From Chloroflexi bacterium 44-23 (GTDB lineage Bacteria > Chloroflexota > Anaerolineae > Anaerolineales > Anaerolineaceae): a stretch of DNA of 64,000 nucleotides. A model generated the notes under the pieces. That model did no database searches. It saw nothing but the letters and a program-made list of their open reading frames with translations, and had not been told where the DNA came from. Below, in pieces: positions 6,793 to 64,000 of the stretch. Every line of letters begins with the position of its first letter. Position 1 is the first letter of the stretch. A program made the position numbers and the translations under genes. The stretch covers positions 372,001 through 436,000 of the forward strand of contig MKUW01000015.1 in NCBI GenBank assembly GCA_001899005.1. The letters are read 5' to 3'.

Positions 6793-9192
6793 ATGCTTAA
6801 CTGGTTAAAACACTTTCAACTCGAAAGAATTTCTTTCTTTATAGGGTTTTTGACGGCTTCACTTTTTTGGTGGTTATTTGTTAAAACCAAGAAATGGTGG
6901 CCAGAAATTACCAATTCTCTCAAAAATATGAGCGAAAATATTCGTCGCAACCAATCGTATGGATTGGTTATTGCTCTTCGGAAAGATGTTATCAAGCGTT
7001 CACAATCAAATCACATTGGGGCAAAGCTCTTCCGTCTAAACGAAATTCTTGTAGAACCATCATTTCTTATACCTCCCCATTTGAATATCGGTGCTGAAAA
7101 ATCGCTTTTTCAAGAAGAAGCTGCCAATATGGTAGCGTTTTCTCCAGAATTAACCGTTATTAGTCGCAATTTTTCGGTACCAAAAATAGAAATCTACAAC
7201 GCAATTCAAAAATATCCACGTATTGCTATCAGTGGGATTCCCGGATCCGGAAAAACATTTACGATGGCTCATTTAGCCAGTTTAATTGCGGAAAAAAATG
7301 TTGCTTGTGGAAATTGCAGTGGCAAAACACCGTTTTACTTTCATGTCTATGATACAAGTATGTTACTTTCCCCTAATCATGATTTACCCACCCACATTTA
7401 TAAAGCAATATCCCCCTATTTACCTTCTTCCCAATTACCAAAACTGGCTAAATTCATTGATCATGAATTAACCAAAGGTAACGCAATCATCATTCTTGAT
7501 GGATTGGACGAGCTACACGAAAGTGATGCTGACAAGATACTGGAGATGATTGAAAGATCCACTAGCACGTATCCATTCACACAATGGGTACTGTCAACTT
7601 CACCTTATTATTTCGGAAATCTGGAACGAATGAATTTCGTTGTTTTACCAATCGCAGCGATGTCTAACGCTGAAATCAATGAACTTCACCAAAAATGGAT
7701 TTCATTATGGTACCGACACATTTTTGGTGAGGATAGTCAAACACCTTATTATCTTAAACGGGAACTTCTCCTTAATTGGGCGAATTTCACACCGCCGGGC
7801 TATACATCTTTGGAAAATACACTTTATATCTGGGGAGCACTATCCGGAGATTTGCGTGGTAATGATACATTATCGATTTATGAAAGTTTGTTCTCACGAA
7901 TTTTCCAAGCCGGCTATTCTCCGGATGCTTTGGCAGCCTTCGCTTATCAATTTATTGAAGCCGATTCAACAGCACTGCCTGCCAAAAAATCAGAGGGCAG
8001 CCTTTCCGAACCGCTGCTTGATTGGGGAATCCTAAGCCATAAAAACGATTTATTGGTGTTTAATTATATTGATCTCCTAACATATCTGGCCAGTATGTAT
8101 CCGAAACTAAAACATACACCAGAGAAAATCGAACTCCTCGTTCGCAATGCAATCGATTTTTCCTATATGGGATTTTTGTCTGCTCGGAATGCTCAACCCA
8201 AATGGGTAGAAAATAGCTTGCAAATAGATCAGGCACCTTTATATTACAACTTAACGACGATCTTCCCCTGGCTACGCCATGCTCCGATTAATACGCCGTG
8301 GCGAACCGCTTTATTTAAGACTTTGATCCAATTGATTCAAAACCCAATCACACCAACCGGAATAAAGACCCGACTTTCATCCGCATTTGCTTATGCGAAT
8401 GACCCTTCTTTGAATGTTTTTTGCAAACAGCTCTTATCACAATCGGATAATAACTACAAAATATTGGCCCTTCTCTTGATTGGCTCCACTTCTGATAATT
8501 CATTGAATAATGAAATTATTGCTTCACTTTCGACATCGTCATCACAAATTCAAAAATATTCGGCACTGGCTTTGTCTGTATTTGAAGATGATCAAAGTTA
8601 TCATGCTCTGGCCTTATTGCTTTTAAACGCTGACGAGGATGTTCGCAAACTGGTAGCAGAAAGTCTGGCGAACATGAAATTACAGGGCATTGATATTTTG
8701 AAGGATGCAATTACACTCGAGGATATTTCGGTTCGTCGATCCGCAATTTTTGGACTCGCCCACATTAATGAATTGTGGGCTTATGAATTACTTGGAAAAT
8801 TATCGATCGAAGATTCACAATGGGTAGTACGAAATGTAGCCCATCAAGCAGTCGAATATTTGGATTCTCAATCACAATTTTCCCCCCAAACAGTAATCCC
8901 TCTATATGAAAAAGAATGGTTGATTCAATTCGCAGCTGACCAGAACCTCGGTATTTCACCGGAAATCAACCCGACTCCCTTGTTGCTGAAAGCAATCAAT
9001 TCCGGTACAGAGCAAGAAAAACTAAACGCTATGGCAGAATTACCATTGTTTATCGAAGGTACCCCGCAGGCCGACATCATACAGTTGGTCTATGATAGTA
9101 ACCAGCAAATTTCAGAAATGTGTGCCAATATGATTTGGAGAATATACCAATCCGGAACAGAGATTCTTATTGATCAAGCCAGTTTGATTTAA
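6793..9192 (+). CDS. membrane-anchored NACHT-type NTPase with HEAT-like repeats
   Basis: 799 residues. A single hydrophobic helix at about residues 13-30 anchors the N-terminus. A P-loop GIPGSGKT lies at 148-155 and a Walker B with the NACHT-type extended acidic motif IIILDGLDEL at 232-241. The central part (about 300-500) is helical winged-helix-like. Residues about 530-760 contain degenerate HEAT/Armadillo units such as SVRRSAIFGLAHINE and DEDVRKLVAESLANM. STAND NTPases of this build act as signal-gated switches, and many bacterial NACHT proteins are immune sensors, but membrane-anchored versions may be regulatory. No effector domain is evident. The stop overlaps the convergent DUF167 gene by 4 bases. 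Confidence 0.8.
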   Translation: MLNWLKHFQLERISFFIGFLTASLFWWLFVKTKKWWPEITNSLKNMSENIRRNQSYGLVIALRKDVIKRSQSNHIGAKLFRLNEILVEPSFLIPPHLNIGAEKSLFQEEAANMVAFSPELTVISRNFSVPKIEIYNAIQKYPRIAISGIPGSGKTFTMAHLASLIAEKNVACGNCSGKTPFYFHVYDTSMLLSPNHDLPTHIYKAISPYLPSSQLPKLAKFIDHELTKGNAIIILDGLDELHESDADKILEMIERSTSTYPFTQWVLSTSPYYFGNLERMNFVVLPIAAMSNAEINELHQKWISLWYRHIFGEDSQTPYYLKRELLLNWANFTPPGYTSLENTLYIWGALSGDLRGNDTLSIYESLFSRIFQAGYSPDALAAFAYQFIEADSTALPAKKSEGSLSEPLLDWGILSHKNDLLVFNYIDLLTYLASMYPKLKHTPEKIELLVRNAIDFSYMGFLSARNAQPKWVENSLQIDQAPLYYNLTTIFPWLRHAPINTPWRTALFKTLIQLIQNPITPTGIKTRLSSAFAYANDPSLNVFCKQLLSQSDNNYKILALLLIGSTSDNSLNNEIIASLSTSSSQIQKYSALALSVFEDDQSYHALALLLLNADEDVRKLVAESLANMKLQGIDILKDAITLEDISVRRSAIFGLAHINELWAYELLGKLSIEDSQWVVRNVAHQAVEYLDSQSQFSPQTVIPLYEKEWLIQFAADQNLGISPEINPTPLLLKAINSGTEQEKLNAMAELPLFIEGTPQADIIQLVYDSNQQISEMCANMIWRIYQSGTEILIDQASLI

Positions 9193-9509
9193 CTGATACT
9201 TGCCTGTGCGAGAATCTTATTCAGCTCTTCCGGATCGAAGCCATTAATAGTGACGATCAATTTATCATTTTTCCCAGTGATTAATTCGATTTGCTTCTTT
9301 TTTACATTGGTTAATCGCAATATTTCCTCGATAATCAATTGGTTTCGAAAGTCTTCCGAAGACCCGGTTGGAAAATAAAATTCTATAATGCCAGTTTTTA
9401 AGATCTTTCCAAATCCTAATTTCGTCAAGCTCTGCAAGCATTTCACAGCCACAGCCGTACCACTTCCTGAACCATTTAATTTATCCGGAAATTTCATTTT
9501 ACGATCCAA
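9189..9509 (-). CDS. DUF167 (YggU-like) family protein
   Basis: 106 residues, last gene of the long minus-strand operon. The order beta-strand KCLQSLTKLGF, then IIEFYFPTGSSEDFRNQLIIEEILRL, then KKKQIELITGKNDKLIVTINGF fits the small alpha/beta DUF167 fold, and it sits directly after yggT, its usual neighbour. The usual PPxxGKAN stretch is replaced by PTGSSEDFRNQ, so it is a divergent member. The ATG at 9509 overlaps the yggT stop by 11 bases. A second ATG at 9497 would start one base after that stop, and either is possible. Function of the family is unknown. Confidence 0.65.
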   Translation of the reverse strand: MDRKMKFPDKLNGSGSGTAVAVKCLQSLTKLGFGKILKTGIIEFYFPTGSSEDFRNQLIIEEILRLTNVKKKQIELITGKNDKLIVTINGFDPEELNKILAQASIS

Positions 9510-9765
9510 ATTTCATAAGCACTGACACAAGGAGGATTTCAACAACACGCACTAATAAAACCAGTACAATCGGACTAAAATCAAACCCCCCCAGGGGTGG
9601 AACAACTTTACGGATTGGATTTAGAAGTGGGTTGATGAGACCATCAAGTGTTCGCCGTATGGGATGGTATGGGGAAACAAAATAACTCATAACAATAGCT
9701 ATAATGATTAACCATGTATAAACACTGGCTGTTATTTGAATAATTTGAATAATTAAACCGAGCAT
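9499..9765 (-). CDS. yggT: YggT family membrane protein
   Basis: 88 residues, two hydrophobic helices with the family signature between them: SYFVSPYHPIRRTLDGLINPLLNPIRKVVPPLGGFDFSP is present across residues about 26-64, and the second helix contains IVLVLLVRVVEILL. YggT proteins are small inner-membrane proteins found next to yggS in most bacteria and linked to cell-shape/division clusters and osmotic tolerance. It lies 25 bases after yggS and overlaps the DUF167 gene, consistent with co-translation. Confidence 0.9.
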   Translation of the reverse strand: MLGLIIQIIQITASVYTWLIIIAIVMSYFVSPYHPIRRTLDGLINPLLNPIRKVVPPLGGFDFSPIVLVLLVRVVEILLVSVLMKFGS

Positions 9766-53545: not shown

Positions 53546-56068
53546 CTACTTTGATACAACCATTTTTATCATCTTTCCCTTTGAATCAATGGTGACCCGG
53601 GCTGTGTGAGTATATTTTTTGCGACCTAATTGGACCAAATTTTGTAAAGTAACTACATAGCGATCTTTAATCAGTCGAATATTCTCGCTTGCTGAAGGCA
53701 CGCCTTTATATGTGCTATCGACGCCTACTTGCATTTTGTTCAACTTTACTGTTGCTTGTTCGATACCCGGCAGATACGGCTTAAGTTTTAATTTTACTTG
53801 AGAAATGATTTCTTCATCAATTACCAGCCCATTTCCATTTCCATGATCGACATCACATATTGTTTTTACCTTGGAAGGCTTCGCTAAAATTGGTAAGCGT
53901 CTGTTGACCAAATTATTGGGTTCATATGCAAAGAAAGGATCACCATAGAATATAAATTGGATCAATGTTTTTTGATCTTCACCATCCAGGTACCCCTGTC
54001 GAGTAGTCATTTGCTGCACAAGGCTAATTTTCGCTCGCATAAAAGCTTCCCCACTGGTGTTGCCTTCACGAACATTCTTCCAAAACAAATTTGCCAACAA
54101 ATCAGCAGCAATTAATGGTGAAGAAATGGAACCATATGAAGTACAGGTAGATCCGATAAAAACCGGAACACCTAATGATAGATATTTCAACCCAATTGAA
54201 TTGTTCTCGTATTTATTGAACATGTGGCCGCCATAGCAAGCTTCAGTAAACACAATCTTCGGAGCGCGTCCATTTGCGACCAGATCTTCAGGTGCTACTG
54301 CTAACGGGTAATCAATGCCGCTTGGGTCAAGGTAATCGCGTTGTCCATACCATTCACCATGGTCTTGAAGGCCATGCAAATTAAAATAAACCAAATCATT
54401 ATTCATTAAATCACTTTGTTTAAGGAATTGGTTCTTCAAAGCAGGTGAAATGAATACTTTCTTGGTTTCAGCGATTGGCCGAAAAGTTGCGTAGGATGAT
54501 AATTTCCATACTGATGCAGAATAACCGATTCCAGATAGGTTGGCAGGCCTCATCAAAGCAGAAAACGAGCTAAATATTCGTGCCCACACCATGCGAATTG
54601 ATTTCGGTTGGGAATGATATTTGACCATCGAGCGCAATTGCTGAATTAAAATACCGGCATCAGCTCCGTTTTCACCCATAATTCTGCCAACAGGCCAATC
54701 CGGAACAAAATAATTAGAATCCAGATTGGAATACGGATTATCTGAGAGAACTTCGTTGTCGACATCATCTGTAGGGTTAGGCAGGCGGTGGAATGGAACC
54801 ACCTCATCATTACCCACAATTAATAATGCTCCAATCTTCTCACCTCTTTTTAACAGCGAGTTATCTAACTCGAGAAGACTGCTTTTTATTTTCCAGGGAT
54901 CAATAATATTTAAGGCTGCCGTGTTGAACTTAGTCTGCGATTGAGGATCGTCCGGGATAAATAAAACCGAATCCCATCCCGGTTTGCTCTGCACGAGCAG
55001 TTGGATATGCCGCAGCACCTGAAAAATTATCTGATAGGTCTGCTCACCATATTGTTTAATCAATCCTGTTTTGGTTGTTAGAATAACATAAACTGGGAAC
55101 CGGCCATCTATTTTCGTATTGGCATCTTTTTTTAATTTATTGGCAAGCCTTGCGAACTCTTTGGAGACCTGTTTGCCGGTATCGGATTGAATAAACGATT
55201 TTCGTTTATTTCTGGATGAGTTTTCCTCAAATTCATCAAAGTTTATCGCATAATTTGTATTCGGATCCCCTTCCGGCAGCCTGTTCCAACCTAAATCAAA
55301 AGCAACTTCATTTGGCACCTGCAGATCCAGGACGATCTCTAATTTGTCCGGCCAAAGAGGCAGAAAAACATGCTGATCACCCCACCATCGTCTTGCTACT
55401 TGTCCAGATGCATCTTGAGCCACACATTCATGTAACAAATTGACTGCTCGTTCCTCATCACCCATTTCTAAAAGTTCTTCTGCCAAAACCATCTTGAATT
55501 GAATTGCTTCTGGCCAGGTACTATGATAAAGATCTGCCAGTTTCTGAACAGTATTTGTATCCTGGTTTAAGTAGACCGTTTTAAGATGATATACATTGAT
55601 CAAAGCATTATCTTGCTTTAGAGAGAGAATTCTAAAAACCATTTGCGAGGCATCATCTACCTTGTTTTGAATAATGGCTTTTTGAACGGCATGCAGGGCC
55701 GGACTCCAGACTGGCAGCATATTTTTCTGAACCCCTTTGCCACCAAGAGCGAATTGAGAAGCCTGGCTGAGCAGTTTCTCGGATGCACTCACCGGAAGAT
55801 GTCCTAAAAACTGATAGGCTTCCAGAAATTCCGGGTCCGATTTTAGCAAGTCATTCACCAATTCTATGGCCTTTTGCCAATTCTTTTCAGCAGCAAAGAA
55901 TTTCGCGAGATAAAGTTTTATTCCAAGGTCACCGGGATATGCGCCAAGCCATTTTAACGCTGCCTGTCGTCCAAAAACATTTTTTTGGTGGCTGAGGGCA
56001 GACCCAAGAATTTGGATCAGTGTTCCACGCGAAATTGCCGTCTGCGAACTTCTAGGATCATCCAACAT
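53546..56068 (-). CDS. TPR protein fused to a clan-CD (C25/gingipain-like) cysteine protease
   Basis: 840 residues from ATG 56068, nine bases after GGAGG. An upstream ATG at 56098 is inside the giant TPR gene without its own site. Residues 1-240 are TPR-like (AIELVNDLLKSDPEFLEAYQFLG). A central alpha/beta domain is followed by the protease core: catalytic His H565 in YFNLHGLQDHGEWYG, Cys C611 in IVFTEACYGGHM, plus SIGLKYLSLGVPVFIGSTCTSYG and the C25 terminal motif IFYGDPFF. A C-terminal tail of 130 residues is not recognised. Downstream of the giant TPR gene with an 11-base overlap. Substrate unknown. Confidence 0.8.
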   Translation of the reverse strand: MLDDPRSSQTAISRGTLIQILGSALSHQKNVFGRQAALKWLGAYPGDLGIKLYLAKFFAAEKNWQKAIELVNDLLKSDPEFLEAYQFLGHLPVSASEKLLSQASQFALGGKGVQKNMLPVWSPALHAVQKAIIQNKVDDASQMVFRILSLKQDNALINVYHLKTVYLNQDTNTVQKLADLYHSTWPEAIQFKMVLAEELLEMGDEERAVNLLHECVAQDASGQVARRWWGDQHVFLPLWPDKLEIVLDLQVPNEVAFDLGWNRLPEGDPNTNYAINFDEFEENSSRNKRKSFIQSDTGKQVSKEFARLANKLKKDANTKIDGRFPVYVILTTKTGLIKQYGEQTYQIIFQVLRHIQLLVQSKPGWDSVLFIPDDPQSQTKFNTAALNIIDPWKIKSSLLELDNSLLKRGEKIGALLIVGNDEVVPFHRLPNPTDDVDNEVLSDNPYSNLDSNYFVPDWPVGRIMGENGADAGILIQQLRSMVKYHSQPKSIRMVWARIFSSFSALMRPANLSGIGYSASVWKLSSYATFRPIAETKKVFISPALKNQFLKQSDLMNNDLVYFNLHGLQDHGEWYGQRDYLDPSGIDYPLAVAPEDLVANGRAPKIVFTEACYGGHMFNKYENNSIGLKYLSLGVPVFIGSTCTSYGSISSPLIAADLLANLFWKNVREGNTSGEAFMRAKISLVQQMTTRQGYLDGEDQKTLIQFIFYGDPFFAYEPNNLVNRRLPILAKPSKVKTICDVDHGNGNGLVIDEEIISQVKLKLKPYLPGIEQATVKLNKMQVGVDSTYKGVPSASENIRLIKDRYVVTLQNLVQLGRKKYTHTARVTIDSKGKMIKMVVSK

Positions 56069-59000
56069 GTTGTTTTGCCTCCAATGGAGAATGTACAAAA
56101 TTAAGAGCGATTACTCCGGCCAGTTGCCGCCGAATACTGGCATCTTTTGGTGATAAATTTGCAGCCATACGCAGCATTTTTTCTGCACCTTGATAATCTT
56201 TTACTTCTTTCATGATCTGTCCAGTCTTGTAATACGCACGCGCATCATTGCTATCCCGCAAGATTGCTTCCTGATAAGCATCCAGTGCGTTAGGATAATT
56301 TTGTTGGTCAAAATAAATATCTCCAACTTCCAGACAGGAAATCACATCTTCACTATTAATGGCTGCCGCTTTACTAAAGTATTCCAAAGCTTGATCTAAA
56401 TGACCTTGTTTCTTTAATAGTCCTCCCAGGAGCAACAGAATTCCTGGTTGTTCCATTGAAATTCTTAACGATTTCTTCGCATTCTCTTCCGCAGCTTGAA
56501 AATCTTCCAAATCGTTATAAAGCAGCGCCAGGAGAGAAAATGCCTCCCAATCTTCCGAATCTTCCACAGTCATTTGAGACACTACTTTAAGCGCTTCTAC
56601 CAGGTTGCCGATTTCCCTCAAATTCCAGGCTAGAGAAACTTTCAACTCATGGCTTTCAGGGTTGTTCACCAGAGCTTTTTCAGCCATTCGAACAGCATCT
56701 TGATATTTTTTTTGAGTTTCCAGAATGGAAATCATAAGTAAATACCCGGCTACGTTTTCAGGATTTTTTTGAATGACCTGATAAGCATTTTGCTTGGCCT
56801 TTTCATATTGCTGCATTTTTACAAAGATGTAACCTTCCTGCAAAACCGCCTGCATATTCTGAGAATCCATATTTTTAGAAATTTGAATCGATTTCAAAGC
56901 AAGATCAACTTTTCCTTCCATTAAAAATGCCTGGGATTGGTAATAGTGATATTCAAAAGTGGAGCTGAGGTCTTTTTTATAGGTTTCCAATGTTTTCAAA
57001 ACTTCTTCAGATTTACCATTTTTAAGCAAAGTATCAAGGTATGGAATTATTACAGTTTTTATGGAATCTGATTCCTTGATAATTTTCTCCCACAGGTTCA
57101 TAGCCTTGCCATTCTCCCCCATACTTTCGTACAAATTTGCTTCTGTGACTTGCCAATTCTCTTCATCACTCCAGGTTTGATTTGCCTTTTTGCAGTATTC
57201 AAGCGCTTCTGAAATGTTATTAAGCTTGTTGTGGCAATAAGACAATGTCATATTTATTAATGGATTTGATTGAAAGCCTGCATCTGAAAATAGGTTGATA
57301 ACCTTATGAGGCGCAACCGTTAATTGGTGGCTTGCGAAGGTCAGCAAATTGTTAGCTACAGTTTCTGATGAACTCAGAAAATCCTCAACGTCTTCGATTT
57401 TTTCAAGAGTTAATAATCGCCTAATCAGCAAGTATTTCAAAGACGGGATGCCCTCTCCGTTAATCAACTCACGGTTGACGTCGTTTTCATCACCGCTACC
57501 ACTCAGGTAAAGCAAGTCGTTATAGTTTTTAATGAATTCAGTTGAGCCTTTCTGAGAAGCTTTTTTCTGTAATTGCAAGATAAATTGGTCATCACTGGCT
57601 TGCTTTTCCAACAAAACTGAACGATGGGATTTGACGCCTAACTGAGAGAATAATCCGGATAAATTATGACTTGCATTTACCAACAATAAAGTGAATAAGG
57701 ATGGTTCAACATCACAATTTGTAAATTGCTGCCAATCGTTTATTAATCCGGATGCTATCTGGAATTCATATAAGTCAATTGCGCATAAAATCGCAAGGCG
57801 AAAGGTCAGGTTTTTCCAGGTTTGGGAAAGCAAAACGCTTATATTTTCACTTCCAAATGAAAATTTCATATTGGCTAGATTTTCAGATAGCTCCAAAAAT
57901 GCTGTCCGTGCTTCTGAAAATTCATCTTTACTAATCAAATTCATTATGGCTAAACATTCAGACAATGGATTCTTAAATTGTGTGCCGAAATCCTTCTTCA
58001 CTCCATTCGATCTCTGAAATCGATTGATTAGAAAATCAAACGCTTGTTTGATCGGCCATAAAACCTCATCCTCTTGATTTAGGTTTTCCATGTCGATGGT
58101 TGACAGATAACTGTATGCAGTTTCATAATCGTTCAATTGCAAAGAAATATCAGCGGCAAACAATTTGTAGGCCGAAACTGACGGTTGCAATCGAATAACC
58201 TGGTTTATACTTGCCAGACTTTTCTCAAATTGATTTGCTTTGATAGCACAGCCAGCCAGCCTGGTCAAAGTGAATTCATTTTTCTCCATTGCTTCAATCC
58301 AAGCCAACGGAACAAAAAATTCATTGTTCTTTTTAATTAATAAGTACTCTGCCAATTTCTTTTTCGCTTGCAAGGATTGATCATATGCATCTAAAGCAGA
58401 GGAATATTGTTTCAATCCCATTAACACTTCCGCTTGCATCGAAAAAGTTGCAGCAAATGTGTAATTCTGAGAAATTAATTTTTGAATATGTTCCAATCCT
58501 TCTTGCCATTTGTTATTTATGACACAGAGGTAAATTAATTCCAACTGATTTTCAAGTGATAATGGAGAAAGCGTTAATATTCCTTTTTTGTAAGCCTGAT
58601 ACGCATTTTCAAAGTTTTCCAGTCGCAAGAAAATCATTGTCAATTTTCGTAAAATGGAATAATCTGAAATGACCTGATTTAATAATGATGCCAGAGTCGA
58701 GTTGGCTGCTTGCAAATTGCCAACGATGACATATTCATTTGCTAATTGAATTGCCAGCTCGGGATTGTCGTTACTAAGCAAGTTGGCGTATTCCAGTGCT
58801 TTAATCACTTCATTTTCATTAGATAATTTCTTCATAAAGCTTGCGTACCAGATCAAGTTGCGCACATCTGTCGCACAAAGATTGTAAGCTTCCATGGCCA
58901 TCTGTGATGCCTCATTATTTAATTTTGCTGTGAGATACGCCTCAGCCAAAGCTTGTTTAATACCTACATGGTTAGGATTGTAAGAAACTGAGTCTTTTAA

Positions 59001-61442
59001 CATGACCAATCCCATTTCAATTTCTCCAAGGGCATTTTTTACCAACCCAAGGCCAGCAGAAATGCGCCAGGTCCATTCAGAGAGGTCGTTATCTCTTTTT
59101 TGGCTGTTATCTACCAAATCTAAATATATTGAATGAGCGGCCTCAAATTCGTTTAGGAGGAAAAGAACTTCTGCCAGGAGAATATGGGCATAGGTCTTTT
59201 TTTCATCACTTTGTTTTATAAAAGCTTGAAGTGTTTTTTGCGCAGCTAATAAATGTTCCATTGAAGGCTTGTTTTGTTCTGTAAGTGAAAACTGATTCTC
59301 ACTATCATTTAAAATTGTTTTCACATACAAGAGAAGCCATTCCGGTTTCGCTCCTGTTTCAGCTGAAATAGCAATTTCAAAGCTTGCCAGCGCTTGTTCA
59401 CGATTATCATTCTCTAAACATCTTTGCGCGTCCATAAAAGCCAGTTCTGGGTTATTGGCCCACTTCCCTTTAGCCTTCAAAAGGTATCTTTGACTTTCAT
59501 CCAAGTGCCCAAGTTCCTTTAGCGTATGAATTAAATTAATGTAATAATTTTCATCTTCTGAGTTGAGAGCGATTGCTTTTCGTAAGTAAGGTAAGGCTTC
59601 AGCGAACAAATTTTGGTGTAAGCATACTCTCGCTAAAGCATAATGAATCTCATCGGATTCAGGGACAGCCAAGACTGCCGACCTTAATGTTGTGATGGCC
59701 TCATTAAAATTCTCTGCCACCTCAAATATTTCAGCCAGTGTCAACCAGGCTTCGGCGCTAGTGGCATCTCCTTGTAAGGCTTTCTTCAAAGAAATTTTAG
59801 CTGTTTCGTATTCACCCTCAAGGAATTGAATTTTTCCATTTATGGAATAAACTAAAGCGTCTTCCATTCCGTGACTGGCTAATTTCTCACATAATTTCTT
59901 GGCTTCCTCAATTTTGCCGGCATTACAAGCTGCGTTCGCATAATCGAACCAATCGCTTTGTTCAACTTTTCCATTGGCTTCAGCTGTTTCCCATTCTAAA
60001 TATAGGGTTTCCCAATCTTTCTTTTGAATTAGTAGCTTTCGAAGATTCTTTTGAATTTGCGCATTGGCAGGCTCAATCGCAGCATTTATTTTATATTTCT
60101 CATATTGCAATTCAGAGTTGGCGAATTGGTCAATATTGTCAGTGATAATTGCTGAAATGATTGGATTGTTTTTTGAGATCATGTCGAGAAATGAAAGATA
60201 AGCCTCAATCTGATCGGCCAGCTCAAGATGTTTTAACGAGTCGATGATTGTGCGATGGTCAATCTTCTGTAACAATTCAATCTCATCAACGGCTGGCCAA
60301 TTTGCCTGGCGTTCATGCAACCATACGTAAAAGTCTCTGGTAGCCAGTTCCTTGGCGCGGTTTTCTTCCCCTTTTTCTTTTAAGGCAATAGCTGAATTTA
60401 ACTTTTGAATAATTGAGTTATCTAATGATGTATTACTTCCTTCCAAATCAACATATGAATTCGTTCCACCTGGTTTAAAGTGCACATTTTGGCTTGTATC
60501 ACTGCTTGGATCAATGTAGCCATATTCACCGAATGCTTCATCCGAGCGAATAAAGAGTAAATCTATGAAATTTTGAAGTTTATTGGTGGTTTCTTTGGCT
60601 GCCTTAAAATGCGCATTAGCTTGATGGCTAGATTTTTCAAGTACATTCTTATATCCAGAAAGGATATGTTCTTGAATCTTTTCTTCAATAACTTTGAAAG
60701 ATGAAATAGGATTGTTGTCAGTTTCAAACTGATATTGATCAGGTTTGCGAAGGACATTTGAAATTTCCGGAACCATAAACCCTAATTGTCCCGGGAATGA
60801 TTGATACCAACTAATCTGTTTTGCCATTGGACTATTTTCAACCAGATTCTTGATAATATTTGCTTTTTTCTTCTTATCAAACAATTGCACTGAAATAATA
60901 TGGTTTACCAGCGAAATGGCAAGATTCTCATCTTTATCATCAGCAATCGCAATTAAGAAATCTTGGGAATAATCCAACAAGCTGTAGAGAATCGCCAGCG
61001 GAGTTCTCCAACATTGATAGAAAAAAGAGCGCGATTCAAAACGCTGGATTCCTAATTCGGTCAAAATGCCATGCCAATTTTGTGTTTTTAAGCCGCGTTC
61101 ATAGAGCGCCAGGCCTAATAAAGTTGCTTGCTTCAGATCCTGCACTCTTCCCTTGCCGTTGCGAATTGTCTCAAAGAGTGTGACTGCACTCTTTAAGTAA
61201 AGTTTCTCAGAAATTGGTCTTGACCGTATATCTAAAGAAAGCCCGGAGTGAATCAATGCAATCGACCCCAGATTCCAATCTTCGATATTTTGGCCCAGTG
61301 ATTCAACAATCTTTTTCACTGTTCCCAAATCAATAAAGGCTTCCCAGACAATTTTGTCCAGGCGAAGTGATTCGAATAATTTCTTTTGATCAGTCTGTGA
61401 GATTGTTGCGTCAAAATATTGGAAAAATGGTGTTGATTTCAT
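56058..61442 (-). CDS. giant TPR repeat protein, 1794 residues
   Basis: Almost wholly TPR after an N-terminal, partly hydrophobic, unrecognised domain (1-330). Typical units such as YAKALLFLAEAYL-type repeats are seen across 400-1790; for example NYPNALDAYQEAILRDSNDA near the C-terminus and DQALEYFSKAAAINSEDV. It would form a long superhelical scaffold in the cytoplasm. GGAG before the ATG. It begins 18 bases after the 105-residue membrane-protein gene and overlaps the start of the protease gene, so these are coupled and may act together. Confidence 0.85.
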   Translation of the reverse strand: MKSTPFFQYFDATISQTDQKKLFESLRLDKIVWEAFIDLGTVKKIVESLGQNIEDWNLGSIALIHSGLSLDIRSRPISEKLYLKSAVTLFETIRNGKGRVQDLKQATLLGLALYERGLKTQNWHGILTELGIQRFESRSFFYQCWRTPLAILYSLLDYSQDFLIAIADDKDENLAISLVNHIISVQLFDKKKKANIIKNLVENSPMAKQISWYQSFPGQLGFMVPEISNVLRKPDQYQFETDNNPISSFKVIEEKIQEHILSGYKNVLEKSSHQANAHFKAAKETTNKLQNFIDLLFIRSDEAFGEYGYIDPSSDTSQNVHFKPGGTNSYVDLEGSNTSLDNSIIQKLNSAIALKEKGEENRAKELATRDFYVWLHERQANWPAVDEIELLQKIDHRTIIDSLKHLELADQIEAYLSFLDMISKNNPIISAIITDNIDQFANSELQYEKYKINAAIEPANAQIQKNLRKLLIQKKDWETLYLEWETAEANGKVEQSDWFDYANAACNAGKIEEAKKLCEKLASHGMEDALVYSINGKIQFLEGEYETAKISLKKALQGDATSAEAWLTLAEIFEVAENFNEAITTLRSAVLAVPESDEIHYALARVCLHQNLFAEALPYLRKAIALNSEDENYYINLIHTLKELGHLDESQRYLLKAKGKWANNPELAFMDAQRCLENDNREQALASFEIAISAETGAKPEWLLLYVKTILNDSENQFSLTEQNKPSMEHLLAAQKTLQAFIKQSDEKKTYAHILLAEVLFLLNEFEAAHSIYLDLVDNSQKRDNDLSEWTWRISAGLGLVKNALGEIEMGLVMLKDSVSYNPNHVGIKQALAEAYLTAKLNNEASQMAMEAYNLCATDVRNLIWYASFMKKLSNENEVIKALEYANLLSNDNPELAIQLANEYVIVGNLQAANSTLASLLNQVISDYSILRKLTMIFLRLENFENAYQAYKKGILTLSPLSLENQLELIYLCVINNKWQEGLEHIQKLISQNYTFAATFSMQAEVLMGLKQYSSALDAYDQSLQAKKKLAEYLLIKKNNEFFVPLAWIEAMEKNEFTLTRLAGCAIKANQFEKSLASINQVIRLQPSVSAYKLFAADISLQLNDYETAYSYLSTIDMENLNQEDEVLWPIKQAFDFLINRFQRSNGVKKDFGTQFKNPLSECLAIMNLISKDEFSEARTAFLELSENLANMKFSFGSENISVLLSQTWKNLTFRLAILCAIDLYEFQIASGLINDWQQFTNCDVEPSLFTLLLVNASHNLSGLFSQLGVKSHRSVLLEKQASDDQFILQLQKKASQKGSTEFIKNYNDLLYLSGSGDENDVNRELINGEGIPSLKYLLIRRLLTLEKIEDVEDFLSSSETVANNLLTFASHQLTVAPHKVINLFSDAGFQSNPLINMTLSYCHNKLNNISEALEYCKKANQTWSDEENWQVTEANLYESMGENGKAMNLWEKIIKESDSIKTVIIPYLDTLLKNGKSEEVLKTLETYKKDLSSTFEYHYYQSQAFLMEGKVDLALKSIQISKNMDSQNMQAVLQEGYIFVKMQQYEKAKQNAYQVIQKNPENVAGYLLMISILETQKKYQDAVRMAEKALVNNPESHELKVSLAWNLREIGNLVEALKVVSQMTVEDSEDWEAFSLLALLYNDLEDFQAAEENAKKSLRISMEQPGILLLLGGLLKKQGHLDQALEYFSKAAAINSEDVISCLEVGDIYFDQQNYPNALDAYQEAILRDSNDARAYYKTGQIMKEVKDYQGAEKMLRMAANLSPKDASIRRQLAGVIALNFVHSPLEAKQHVG

Positions 61443-61460: not shown

Positions 61461-61775
61461 TTATGCGAATTGCATTAGTAAATAAATCGAACCACTCATA
61501 ACCAGTGCGCCCATTATCACCAGAAATACACCTACGCCTGCAGAAGTTTGTACTAATTGGTTAAGAGATTCAATCAAAACGGAGGCATTACCAACCAAAC
61601 CTGCCATTTCTTCAGCAATCCCCTTTTGAACAATTTTCTTGGTCTCATTGGCGATTTTGTTGATCCCTACACCGAAAACACGTGAGACCAAAATGTACAT
61701 ACCGATTAGAAATGTCAGCGCGCCAACCCCTAAAAGGAGAAGCCCTAATTTATAAAATAATTCTGCAGACATCAT
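61461..61775 (-). CDS. small membrane protein with two helices, unknown
   Basis: 104 residues from the ATG at 61775, eight bases after AGGAGG. A TTG codon three bases earlier is less likely. Two strongly hydrophobic helices (about 8-32 and 78-103) flank an amphipathic central part with KIANETKKIVQKGIAEEMAGLVGN. It could anchor the giant TPR or protease proteins at the membrane, because it heads their operon. No family recognised. Confidence 0.7.
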   Translation of the reverse strand: MMSAELFYKLGLLLLGVGALTFLIGMYILVSRVFGVGINKIANETKKIVQKGIAEEMAGLVGNASVLIESLNQLVQTSAGVGVFLVIMGALVMSGSIYLLMQFA

Positions 61776-61833
61776 CAAAAATACCTCCTGAATTGATAGT
61801 TCAAGAGGTATGATGCAAGATCAGTGCCAGGCT

Positions 61834-63009
61834 TTAGTTTTTCTTCCTGATGATCGTGTAGGGTATGTCGTTCAAATCAATTACCCCGCTGTCATTCGAT
61901 ATCATAGAAAATTCGAGTACATGACTTAATTCACGGACATTGCCAGGCCAATCATAAGCAATGATTGCCTCAAGTGCCCGCGGAGTGATGTCTTCAACGT
62001 TTAAACCCCTTTGGGAGTTAATCAATTTAATCAGGAAACCGACCAGTTCAGGAATGTCTTCTTTTCTATCACGTAAGGCAGGAATTTCCAGATCAATAAC
62101 TTTTAATCGGTAATAAAGATCTTCTCGAAACTCATTTTTGGCAATCATTTCCAACAAATTGCGATTTGAGGCTGCAATCAACTGTACATCAACGTGAATT
62201 TCTTGAGTTCCACCCAGGCGTCTAAATGATTGAGTTTCAATAGCACGCAAGAGCTTGGCCTGAATATCCATGGCCATTGATGAAATTTCATCTAGAAAGA
62301 GGACGCCCCCATCGGCAGTTTCCATTAATCCCAGTTTTCTTTTATCAGCACTCGTAAAGGAATTGGCTTCATGGCCAAACAATTCAGATTCGAGCATGGT
62401 GCTTTGTATTGCTCCGCAATTTATGGCCACAAACATCTTATCCTTGCGCGGACCGCTATGGTAAATATATTGTGCAAGTATGTCTTTGCCAACTCCGGTT
62501 TCACCCGATATCAAAACACTGGCTGAAGCCATAGCTGCGCGTTGGGCTAGGTTATATACCTGCTGCAGTTCTTTATTATTGCTGGGGACAAATTTGAAAT
62601 TTTTCCTTTGAATATCCTGGAAAAGAAAAAGCTGTCGCCGCATTCGAACCAGTTCAACAGCTCTTTTAATCGTTAACTCCAAGCGTTCCAATTTTATTGG
62701 TTTTGTAATGTAATCAAGTGCGCCATTTTTCATCGCATCCACTGCAATTTCAATATCAGGAACACCGGTAATTAATATAATGGGCGGATTATTGGGGAAA
62801 TAAGCGCTTTCATATAAAAGTGTGGGACCAAACCCATCAGGCAATTGCACATCCAGCAACACCAGATCAGCGTTACCTTTTTTTAATTCTTCACGCGCAT
62901 CCCCAAGTGTTCCCACACCAATTACATCGTAGTCCAACGAGGTAAGAAATGACTCTAAAGTAGAGCGCGCATTTACTTCATCATCTACAACCAGTACTGT
63001 AATGCCCAT
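61834..63009 (-). CDS. NtrC-like AAA+ response regulator without GAFTGA and without HTH
   Basis: 391 residues. Receiver domain with phospho-acceptor D53 in LVLLDVQLPDG and conserved D9, D10 and K103. AAA+ domain with Walker A GETGVGKD (169-176) and Walker B GGVLFLDEIS (234-242). The sigma-54-contact loop, normally GAFTGA, reads NSFTSA at 216-221 after FGHEA, and the protein ends at a short C-terminal segment after WPGNVRELSHVLEFSM, with no Fis-type HTH. It can probably oligomerise and hydrolyse ATP, but normal sigma-54 activation is unlikely. Directly follows the kinase gene; stop and start are adjacent. Confidence 0.85.
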   Translation of the reverse strand: MGITVLVVDDEVNARSTLESFLTSLDYDVIGVGTLGDAREELKKGNADLVLLDVQLPDGFGPTLLYESAYFPNNPPIILITGVPDIEIAVDAMKNGALDYITKPIKLERLELTIKRAVELVRMRRQLFLFQDIQRKNFKFVPSNNKELQQVYNLAQRAAMASASVLISGETGVGKDILAQYIYHSGPRKDKMFVAINCGAIQSTMLESELFGHEANSFTSADKRKLGLMETADGGVLFLDEISSMAMDIQAKLLRAIETQSFRRLGGTQEIHVDVQLIAASNRNLLEMIAKNEFREDLYYRLKVIDLEIPALRDRKEDIPELVGFLIKLINSQRGLNVEDITPRALEAIIAYDWPGNVRELSHVLEFSMISNDSGVIDLNDIPYTIIRKKN

Positions 63010-64000
63010 TTATATTTCTCCCTGTTTTACAGGTAAGTATACAGCAAAAATTGTGCCGCCACCCGGGTATGATTCCACGGAAATATTGCCACGGTGTGCC
63101 GTTATTATCCGTTTACTAATGGCCAAACCTAATCCAGTTCCGGTTTTTTTGGTGGTGATAAAGGGTTCAAAAATACGCCCAGCGACTTCCTCAGGTATTC
63201 CCGGGCCGTTATCTGTAATCTTAATTTCAATTTGTGGGTGATTTGAAATTGTTTGGATTTCCTGAATGATTATTCCCAGTGTGCCATTGGGCAACTGGGA
63301 CATTGCCTCTACTGCGTTACTGATCAAATTTGTAAAAACTTGTTCCAATAAGCGTGGATCAGCTGAGATTTCAGGCAGTTTTTCGGGTTTCTGAACAAAA
63401 TCAACAACACCAACGCGCATCATTCTCGGTTTCCAGCGATCAACAACCCGTTGCACTAACACACCTGCATCAATCGTCTCAAACTTAGGATCAAAAGGTT
63501 TGGAATAAGACAAAATTCCTTCCATTTGATGTGTCAAACGTTCGCAATCCAAGTTCATTCGATCTACTAGGTCTTTATTTTTGGGATCATCTGCGAAGGT
63601 TCTTGAAAGCATTTGCAATCCCATGGATATATTATTAATCGGGTTTCGGACTTCATGTGCAAATACAGCCAAAAATTCGCCAAGAATCGCTCTTTGTTCG
63701 AGCTGCTGTGCTCGTACTCTGAATTCTTCATTTTCACTCACATCTCGCAAATAAATCAATAATGCATACAATTCGTCTCTGTGAATGACGGGAATGATTT
63801 TTAATTCAACGGGAATGGAATCCCCATCTCTTCTGTGGATCTGCACAATGCCCAAGCGCTGAAGATACAACTCCTGCCGGCTGGATTCCAATAACGGCAT
63901 TAAATTGTCTGGCCCAATTAAGATATTTTCTATCGGGTGGCCTATAATTTCGCGCATCTGATAGCCAAGCATTAACTCAGCGCTTGGATTAAGAAACCAA
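63010..64000 (-). CDS. PAS-containing sensor histidine kinase, 5' end beyond the window
   Basis: The frame stays open to the right edge (WFLNPSAELMLGYQ is read upstream of the first internal ATG), so at least 330 residues are present and the start is missing. A PAS-type segment ends near 63780, followed by VFAHEVRNPINNISMGL with the phosphorylated His. The ATPase has ITDNGPGIPEE, FITTKKTGTGLGLAISKRI and PGGGTIFAVYLPV. Membrane or sensor parts would be upstream. Adjacent NtrC-like regulator is the partner. Confidence 0.88.
   Translation of the reverse strand, partial: WFLNPSAELMLGYQMREIIGHPIENILIGPDNLMPLLESSRQELYLQRLGIVQIHRRDGDSIPVELKIIPVIHRDELYALLIYLRDVSENEEFRVRAQQLEQRAILGEFLAVFAHEVRNPINNISMGLQMLSRTFADDPKNKDLVDRMNLDCERLTHQMEGILSYSKPFDPKFETIDAGVLVQRVVDRWKPRMMRVGVVDFVQKPEKLPEISADPRLLEQVFTNLISNAVEAMSQLPNGTLGIIIQEIQTISNHPQIEIKITDNGPGIPEEVAGRIFEPFITTKKTGTGLGLAISKRIITAHRGNISVESYPGGGTIFAVYLPVKQGEI

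Follow-up and report, generated by a model that had tools for sequence, protein, structure and literature searches.

The DNA analysed here, called the window, is a stretch of 64,000 nucleotides (C15:372001-436000) from a 4.18-Mb Anaerolineaceae genome that is 97.85% complete; the family was assigned from named relatives, among them Bellilinea, Longilinea, Brevefilum and Ornatilinea. On its minus strand, at 61834..63009, lies an open reading frame for a bEBP-type response regulator of 391 amino acids, hereafter the activator, which combines a receiver with a sigma-54 AAA+ domain. Pfam placed Response_reg at residues 5-114, Sigma54_activat (PF00158, 214.6 bits) at 144-307 and AAA_lid_14 at 313-389, and gave no HTH_8 match C-terminal of AAA_lid_14, the protein ending at residue 391. 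This agrees with an earlier sequence-only reading of the window, in which the protein stops before any Fis-type HTH. The receiver residues Asp9/Asp10/Asp53, Thr81 and Lys103 (codon of the phospho-acceptor Asp53, 62851..62853), Walker A (GETGVGKD, residues 169-176, 62482..62505), Walker B (LFLDEIS, residues 237-243, 62281..62301), the arginine fingers (FREDLYYRL) and sensor II (WPGNVREL), all on the minus strand, were present and nearly invariant in 79 aligned orthologues, bearing out the earlier statement that the receiver aspartates and both Walker motifs are kept. The same reading had given the L1-loop motif at the GAFTGA position (residues 216-221; 62347..62364, minus strand) as NSFTSA, and the activator sequence confirmed it.

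NCBIfam models for AtoC, NtrC, LuxO and similar bEBPs matched the activator over most of its length, with scores below the curated cut-offs for the models listed. The closest solved structure in a PDB sequence search was Aquifex aeolicus NtrC1 (4l4u, E 1.6e-83; also 1ny5), which was also the best fold match of an AlphaFold2 model (pLDDT 82.7); NtrC1 differs from the activator in having GAFTGA and a DNA-binding domain. PADLOC matched the activator only to generic AAA+ entries of the RtcR/PspF type and, once and weakly, to a receiver; it gave nothing for the TM, TPR and C25 proteins encoded downstream.

The minus-strand gene order is rpoN, histidine kinase, activator, TM protein, TPR protein and TPR/C25 protein. 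The 3′ part of the gene for the predicted cognate kinase (651 amino acids, start beyond the window) occupies 63010..64000; the kinase has PAS domains, HisKA, HATPase_c and a weak GAF match, with no membrane domain among the Pfam matches listed. On the other side of the activator, a small protein of 105 amino acids with two hydrophobic (probable TM) segments is encoded at 61461..61775, preceded by the RBS AGGAGG at 61784-61789, and its place is conserved across the class. It is followed by a giant TPR protein of 1794 amino acids (56058..61442) and by a TPR protein of 850 amino acids with a predicted peptidase C25-type protease domain (53546..56098). The C25 assignment is based on a PF01364 score of 51.5 bits and on His575 (NLHG) and Cys621 (EACYG), which were invariant in 31 aligned sequences; a PDB sequence search with this protein gave no meaningful match.

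Loop variation and the missing HTH

At a cut-off of E<=1e-30, the activator gene was found in 108/121 genomes of the family, and the remaining 13 were mostly incomplete assemblies. The loop of the 79 aligned orthologues was GAFTGA in 34, GAFTSA in 24, NAFTGA in 7, GAFSSA in 4, GSFTGA in 3 and GAFTDA in 2, with five other variants seen once each. Position 3 was F or Y, position 4 T or S and position 6 A in 79/79. Among the seven orthologues of the same genus, five had GAFTGA, one GAFTSA and one HSFTGA. NSFTSA is thus the sum of three changes that occur singly or paired in other orthologues, and the exact triple variant was seen in this genome only. The alignment suggests that NSFTSA is drift inside a tolerated set that keeps the Phe and the Thr. 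The Anaerolineaceae orthologues are natural GAFTGA variants open to experiment. Another loop, GSYSGA (Phe to Tyr, Thr to Ser), was observed in the activator of another genome (L083, G025; 8338-9714), where rpoN and a top-scoring -24/-12 site still adjoin the gene.

Each of the three substitutions has a precedent. N at G1 and S at A2 are found in working activators, the second Gly (G5) is D in FlgR, and a putative case has S at G5 (PMC3162934). Sigma-54 activation also survives Ser, Asn or Asp at G266, the second Gly of NorR, an HTH-bearing activator under NO control in which these single substitutions were made in the laboratory; most substitutions at this position were non-functional, and the activity of the Ser variant was still partly regulated (PMC2941729). 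Because one change in GAFTGA can be enough to lower or abolish the function of an activator (PMC3162934, PMC2941729), reduced activity of the NSFTSA protein is possible.

The HTH was absent from >100 family orthologues, whose C-termini end at about the same point, so that sequencing error or truncation of the gene can be ruled out as the cause. In the tree, it was absent in 51/51 sequences on one side (Anaerolineaceae, G289 and the f56 pair) and present in 11 sequences from other families of the class, which carry a C-terminal tail of 66-87 amino acids. A single change explained this distribution in 92% of bootstrap trees, on a branch that is weak by SH-aLRT (90/43). Absence of the HTH from this family of activators is real and old, and together with its retention in the other families it supports the proposal that DNA binding had been lost. 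The sequence-only reading had named an orthologue set with intact GAFTGA and HTH as evidence against it: intact GAFTGA did turn up, within the same genus, but the HTH only in other families. When the HTH-bearing relatives were scanned for enhancer palindromes, no consistent repeat was found.

The activator lacks the C-terminal Fis-type HTH for enhancers that defines the classical NtrC-type (type Ia). It has the features of a type Ic bEBP, namely a Sigma54_activat AAA+ domain with its motifs and no C-terminal HTH, in a genome that encodes sigma-54 and contains candidate -24/-12 promoters. The loop also has the Phe/Tyr at position 3 and Thr/Ser at position 4 of this type, although the hexamer is not canonical. 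The activator is of a known kind with an unusual loop; what sets it apart is that loop and the module around it.

rpoN and candidate -24/-12 promoters

The earlier reading had proposed a genome search for rpoN. A full-length gene (465 amino acids) was found at C15:436972-438369, minus strand, in the same operon as the activator, directly upstream of the kinase gene and about 0.97 kb past the window end (window-equivalent 64972-66369; L037:8973-10370). Its AID, CBD and DBD were all detected (DBD E 2.1e-30), and region I and the RpoN box (ARRTVAKYR) are intact. A weak second Sigma54_DBD match of 33 residues at C13 was taken as a stray HTH match and rejected. Right after sigma-54 region I, 53/60 sampled Chloroflexota RpoN sequences (the sample includes L037 and loci L038-L067 and L238-L267) have a zinc-ribbon-like CxxC...CxxC motif; it is absent from the aligned solved sigma-54 chain and from the RpoN of G108, an apparent contaminant.

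A PF00158 search of the genome gave four matches, of which the activator was the single bEBP, with 97.85% completeness leaving room for a second one in a gap. The other three were rejected as ClpB/ClpC-type ATPases. Some Anaerolineaceae have a second bEBP-like protein (L086:3135-4682 in G202; others in G523 and G583), so "sole activator" is true of this genome and not of every relative.

A candidate sigma-54 -24/-12 promoter, TGGCACTGATCTTGCA, lies at 61814..61829 on the minus strand, 4 bp past the activator stop and upstream of the TM-TPR-C25 genes. This and all other sites reported here are consensus matches, scored with a weight matrix hand-set from the known consensus. A site 1-22 bp past the activator stop was present in 27/28 nearest orthologue loci; a contig end truncates the remaining one. 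In a wider set, a -24/-12 site followed the activator in 57/63 loci and outscored all others of its locus in 50; the exceptions were L072, L154, L164 and three loci that showed no linked TM gene. The probability of such a site at one locus by chance, given the base composition, is ~4e-5. In this genome, a second -24/-12 site stands in front of rpoN.

Sites of this type were more frequent where rpoN was present. In comparisons that ignore shared ancestry, six family genomes with rpoN had 65 exact TGGCAYNNNNNTTGCA sites between them (3.2 per Mb), against 27 in six rpoN- genomes from a different family in the order (1.2 per Mb), and the gene for a 'WPVQW' membrane protein had an upstream -24/-12 site in 6/8 rpoN+ genomes versus 0/13 rpoN- orthologues. 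The WPVQW gene itself (L203:1647-2654, C15:111546-112553; L268-L290) occurs in both rpoN+ and rpoN- relatives. In addition, an operon for a barrel-like protein and a second FtsZ (FtsZ2) was preceded by a -24/-12 site in each of the six family genomes, as well as in G289. A -24/-12-like site at the border between the barrel and FtsZ2 genes was not counted as a promoter; it may reflect coding constraint (GTSIAT-like peptide).

Proposed mode of action and alternatives

We propose, with a probability of roughly 0.86, that the activator, in the same way as Helicobacter pylori FlgR and Chlamydia CtcC, is functional, controlled by phosphorylation and able to activate sigma-54 without an enhancer. The adjoining histidine kinase would phosphorylate Asp53, and the AAA+ domains would assemble as a ring, whose NSFTSA loops, with the contact Phe and Thr kept, would engage from solution a sigma-54 holoenzyme pre-bound at -24/-12. 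Because it has no HTH and the genome contains no competing bEBP, the activator could serve all sigma-54 promoters, that is, the putative promoters of the TM-TPR-C25 genes, rpoN, the barrel-FtsZ2 operon and the membrane-protein gene; the site before rpoN would provide autoregulation. The observed basis for this proposal is the gene order, the single bEBP, the presence of rpoN, the conserved promoter sites, the motif variation and the old absence of the HTH.

HTH-less bEBPs that act from solution are established in H. pylori FlgR (PMC3930126) and Chlamydia CtcC (PMC7482065). The FlgR/FlgS system resembles the one described here in its receiver and AAA+ bEBP without DNA-binding domain and its partner kinase that is not membrane-bound (PMC3930126, PMC3162934), and the wider FlgR group also has a changed second Gly (GAFTDA) (PMC3162934). 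In contrast, FlgR serves flagellar genes, whereas here an rpoN-kinase-bEBP operon has TPR, C25 and FtsZ2 targets, and the FlgR loop differs from NSFTSA at three positions. In the Chlamydia CtcB/CtcC system, an HTH-less bEBP is likewise the sole activator of the sigma-54 regulon (PMC7482065, PMC3162934). Chlamydia belongs to another phylum, and the regulon is a different one. We know of no link between CtcB/CtcC and FtsZ2, C25 or TPR genes. A lineage of >100 genomes, with several cultured strains, would join the few known enhancer-independent sigma-54 activators. Among cultured relatives, C25/activator loci occur in Bellilinea caldifistulae, Longilinea arvoryzae, Ornatilinea apprima and Thermanaerothrix daxensis.

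The three loop substitutions could instead mark a decaying or attenuated sigma-54 activator, with a weakened protein and a regulon that is partly off, or an activator that is being lost. The triple variant is found only in this genome, the branch of the activator is the longest of its small clade (0.48), and the NorR results, in which few second-Gly variants remained functional and the Ser variant was still partly regulated (PMC2941729), point in the same direction. However, all catalytic motifs of the activator, region I and the RpoN box of rpoN are intact, as are the -24/-12 sites at the operon, rpoN, the barrel-FtsZ2 genes and the membrane-protein gene, and we regard attenuation as unlikely.

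We consider it more improbable still that, as the sequence-only reading had suggested, the activator has lost sigma-54 contact and is a phosphorylation-controlled AAA+ machine that remodels other proteins, for example the TPR and C25 products. The NSFTSA loop and the missing HTH fit such a machine, and the TPR and C25 genes are indeed conserved neighbours. The retained Phe and Thr, GAFTGA in close orthologues of the same genus and the precedent for each substitution nevertheless speak against loss of contact. Action on something other than sigma-54 transcription finds no support at a locus where rpoN is in the same operon, the activator is the only bEBP and a -24/-12 promoter adjoins its stop; without an activator, the conserved sigma-54 promoters would be silent, and nothing would keep them from decaying. 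The suggested link to the neighbouring protease and TPR proteins holds, but its nature is most likely transcriptional. The idea of a family-derived regulator of the sigma-70 type, akin to TyrR, HupR or VpsR, can practically be dismissed: an altered GAFTGA is the hallmark of these proteins (PMC3162934), but they use a DNA-binding domain and have lost the Thr or part of the loop, whereas the activator has no DNA-binding domain and keeps Phe and Thr. A degenerate GAFTGA and a missing HTH thus do not mean that sigma-54 function is lost when rpoN and conserved -24/-12 promoters adjoin.

Downstream genes and a second FtsZ

The rpoN-kinase-bEBP linkage recurs across the class, and the order rpoN-kinase-bEBP-TM-TPR-C25 is kept in many families. 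Lineages differ in where the genes for the barrel protein and FtsZ2 lie: upstream of TM-TPR-C25 in some (directly between activator and TM gene in L149 and L163), after the C25 gene in G272, G224 and G289, and apart from these genes in Anaerolineaceae, as an operon that has a sigma-54 site of its own. The barrel gene occurred in 9/9 rpoN+ and 0/13 rpoN- genomes compared, which had 2-3 copies of FtsZ and exactly one, respectively.

FtsZ2 and FtsZ1 were separated by a 100/100 branch. The T7 Asp was present in 24/24 FtsZ1 sequences and replaced by His, Asn or Ser in 17/17 FtsZ2 sequences; with the matching change, E. coli FtsZ D212A retains 7% of its GTPase activity (PMC8142252). Anaerolineaceae sigma-54 thereby gains a concrete set of likely targets, including a second FtsZ without the catalytic residue.

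Taken together, rpoN, the kinase, the bEBP, the TM protein, the giant TPR protein, the C25 protease, the barrel-like protein and the second FtsZ constitute a conserved Chloroflexota sigma-54 module, the function of which we infer as follows. One kinase and its solution activator may control a self-contained sigma-54 programme that delivers a GTPase-crippled FtsZ paralogue together with the giant TPR protein, the membrane protein and the C25/caspase-like protease, and that would be dedicated to remodelling or arresting the division filament in response to a signal, a tentative scheme that we hold to be possible and rather doubtful. Our best guess at the division of labour, equally speculative, is that FtsZ filaments would change in response to the signal, with the TPR protein as scaffold and the protease as processing enzyme. 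We found no report of a sigma-54 module with FtsZ2 in the open-licence literature, and to our knowledge the programme would be unlike any known sigma-54 regulon or FtsZ system. With FtsZ2 in the target set, division control in filamentous Chloroflexota becomes directly testable.

The barrel-like protein (L313:8340-9728 and orthologues, including L163:751-2088) starts with 'LGFHYFPDTxHY' and adjoins FtsZ2. Its family gave no significant Pfam match, and its structural model was poor (pLDDT 66.8), with GH39/aldolase-barrel matches at TM about 0.4; assignment of a function from the predicted fold was set aside, given the poor model and weak matches. Among the genomes compared, FtsZ2 (L313:9732-10889 in G000 C6; L314-L321; L158, L163, L172, L179, L180, L182, L193 and L194) was confined to rpoN+ genomes, where it is associated either with the sigma-54 operon or with a sigma-54 promoter. 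In a class sample of 298 genomes, 36 had a strong rpoN match and 32 a C25 gene, with both in 27. The C25 gene occurred without a strong rpoN match in G026, G042, G157, G177 and G229 (C25 at C128:14445-15980); several of these five genomes have gaps, although completeness reaches 93% in G229.
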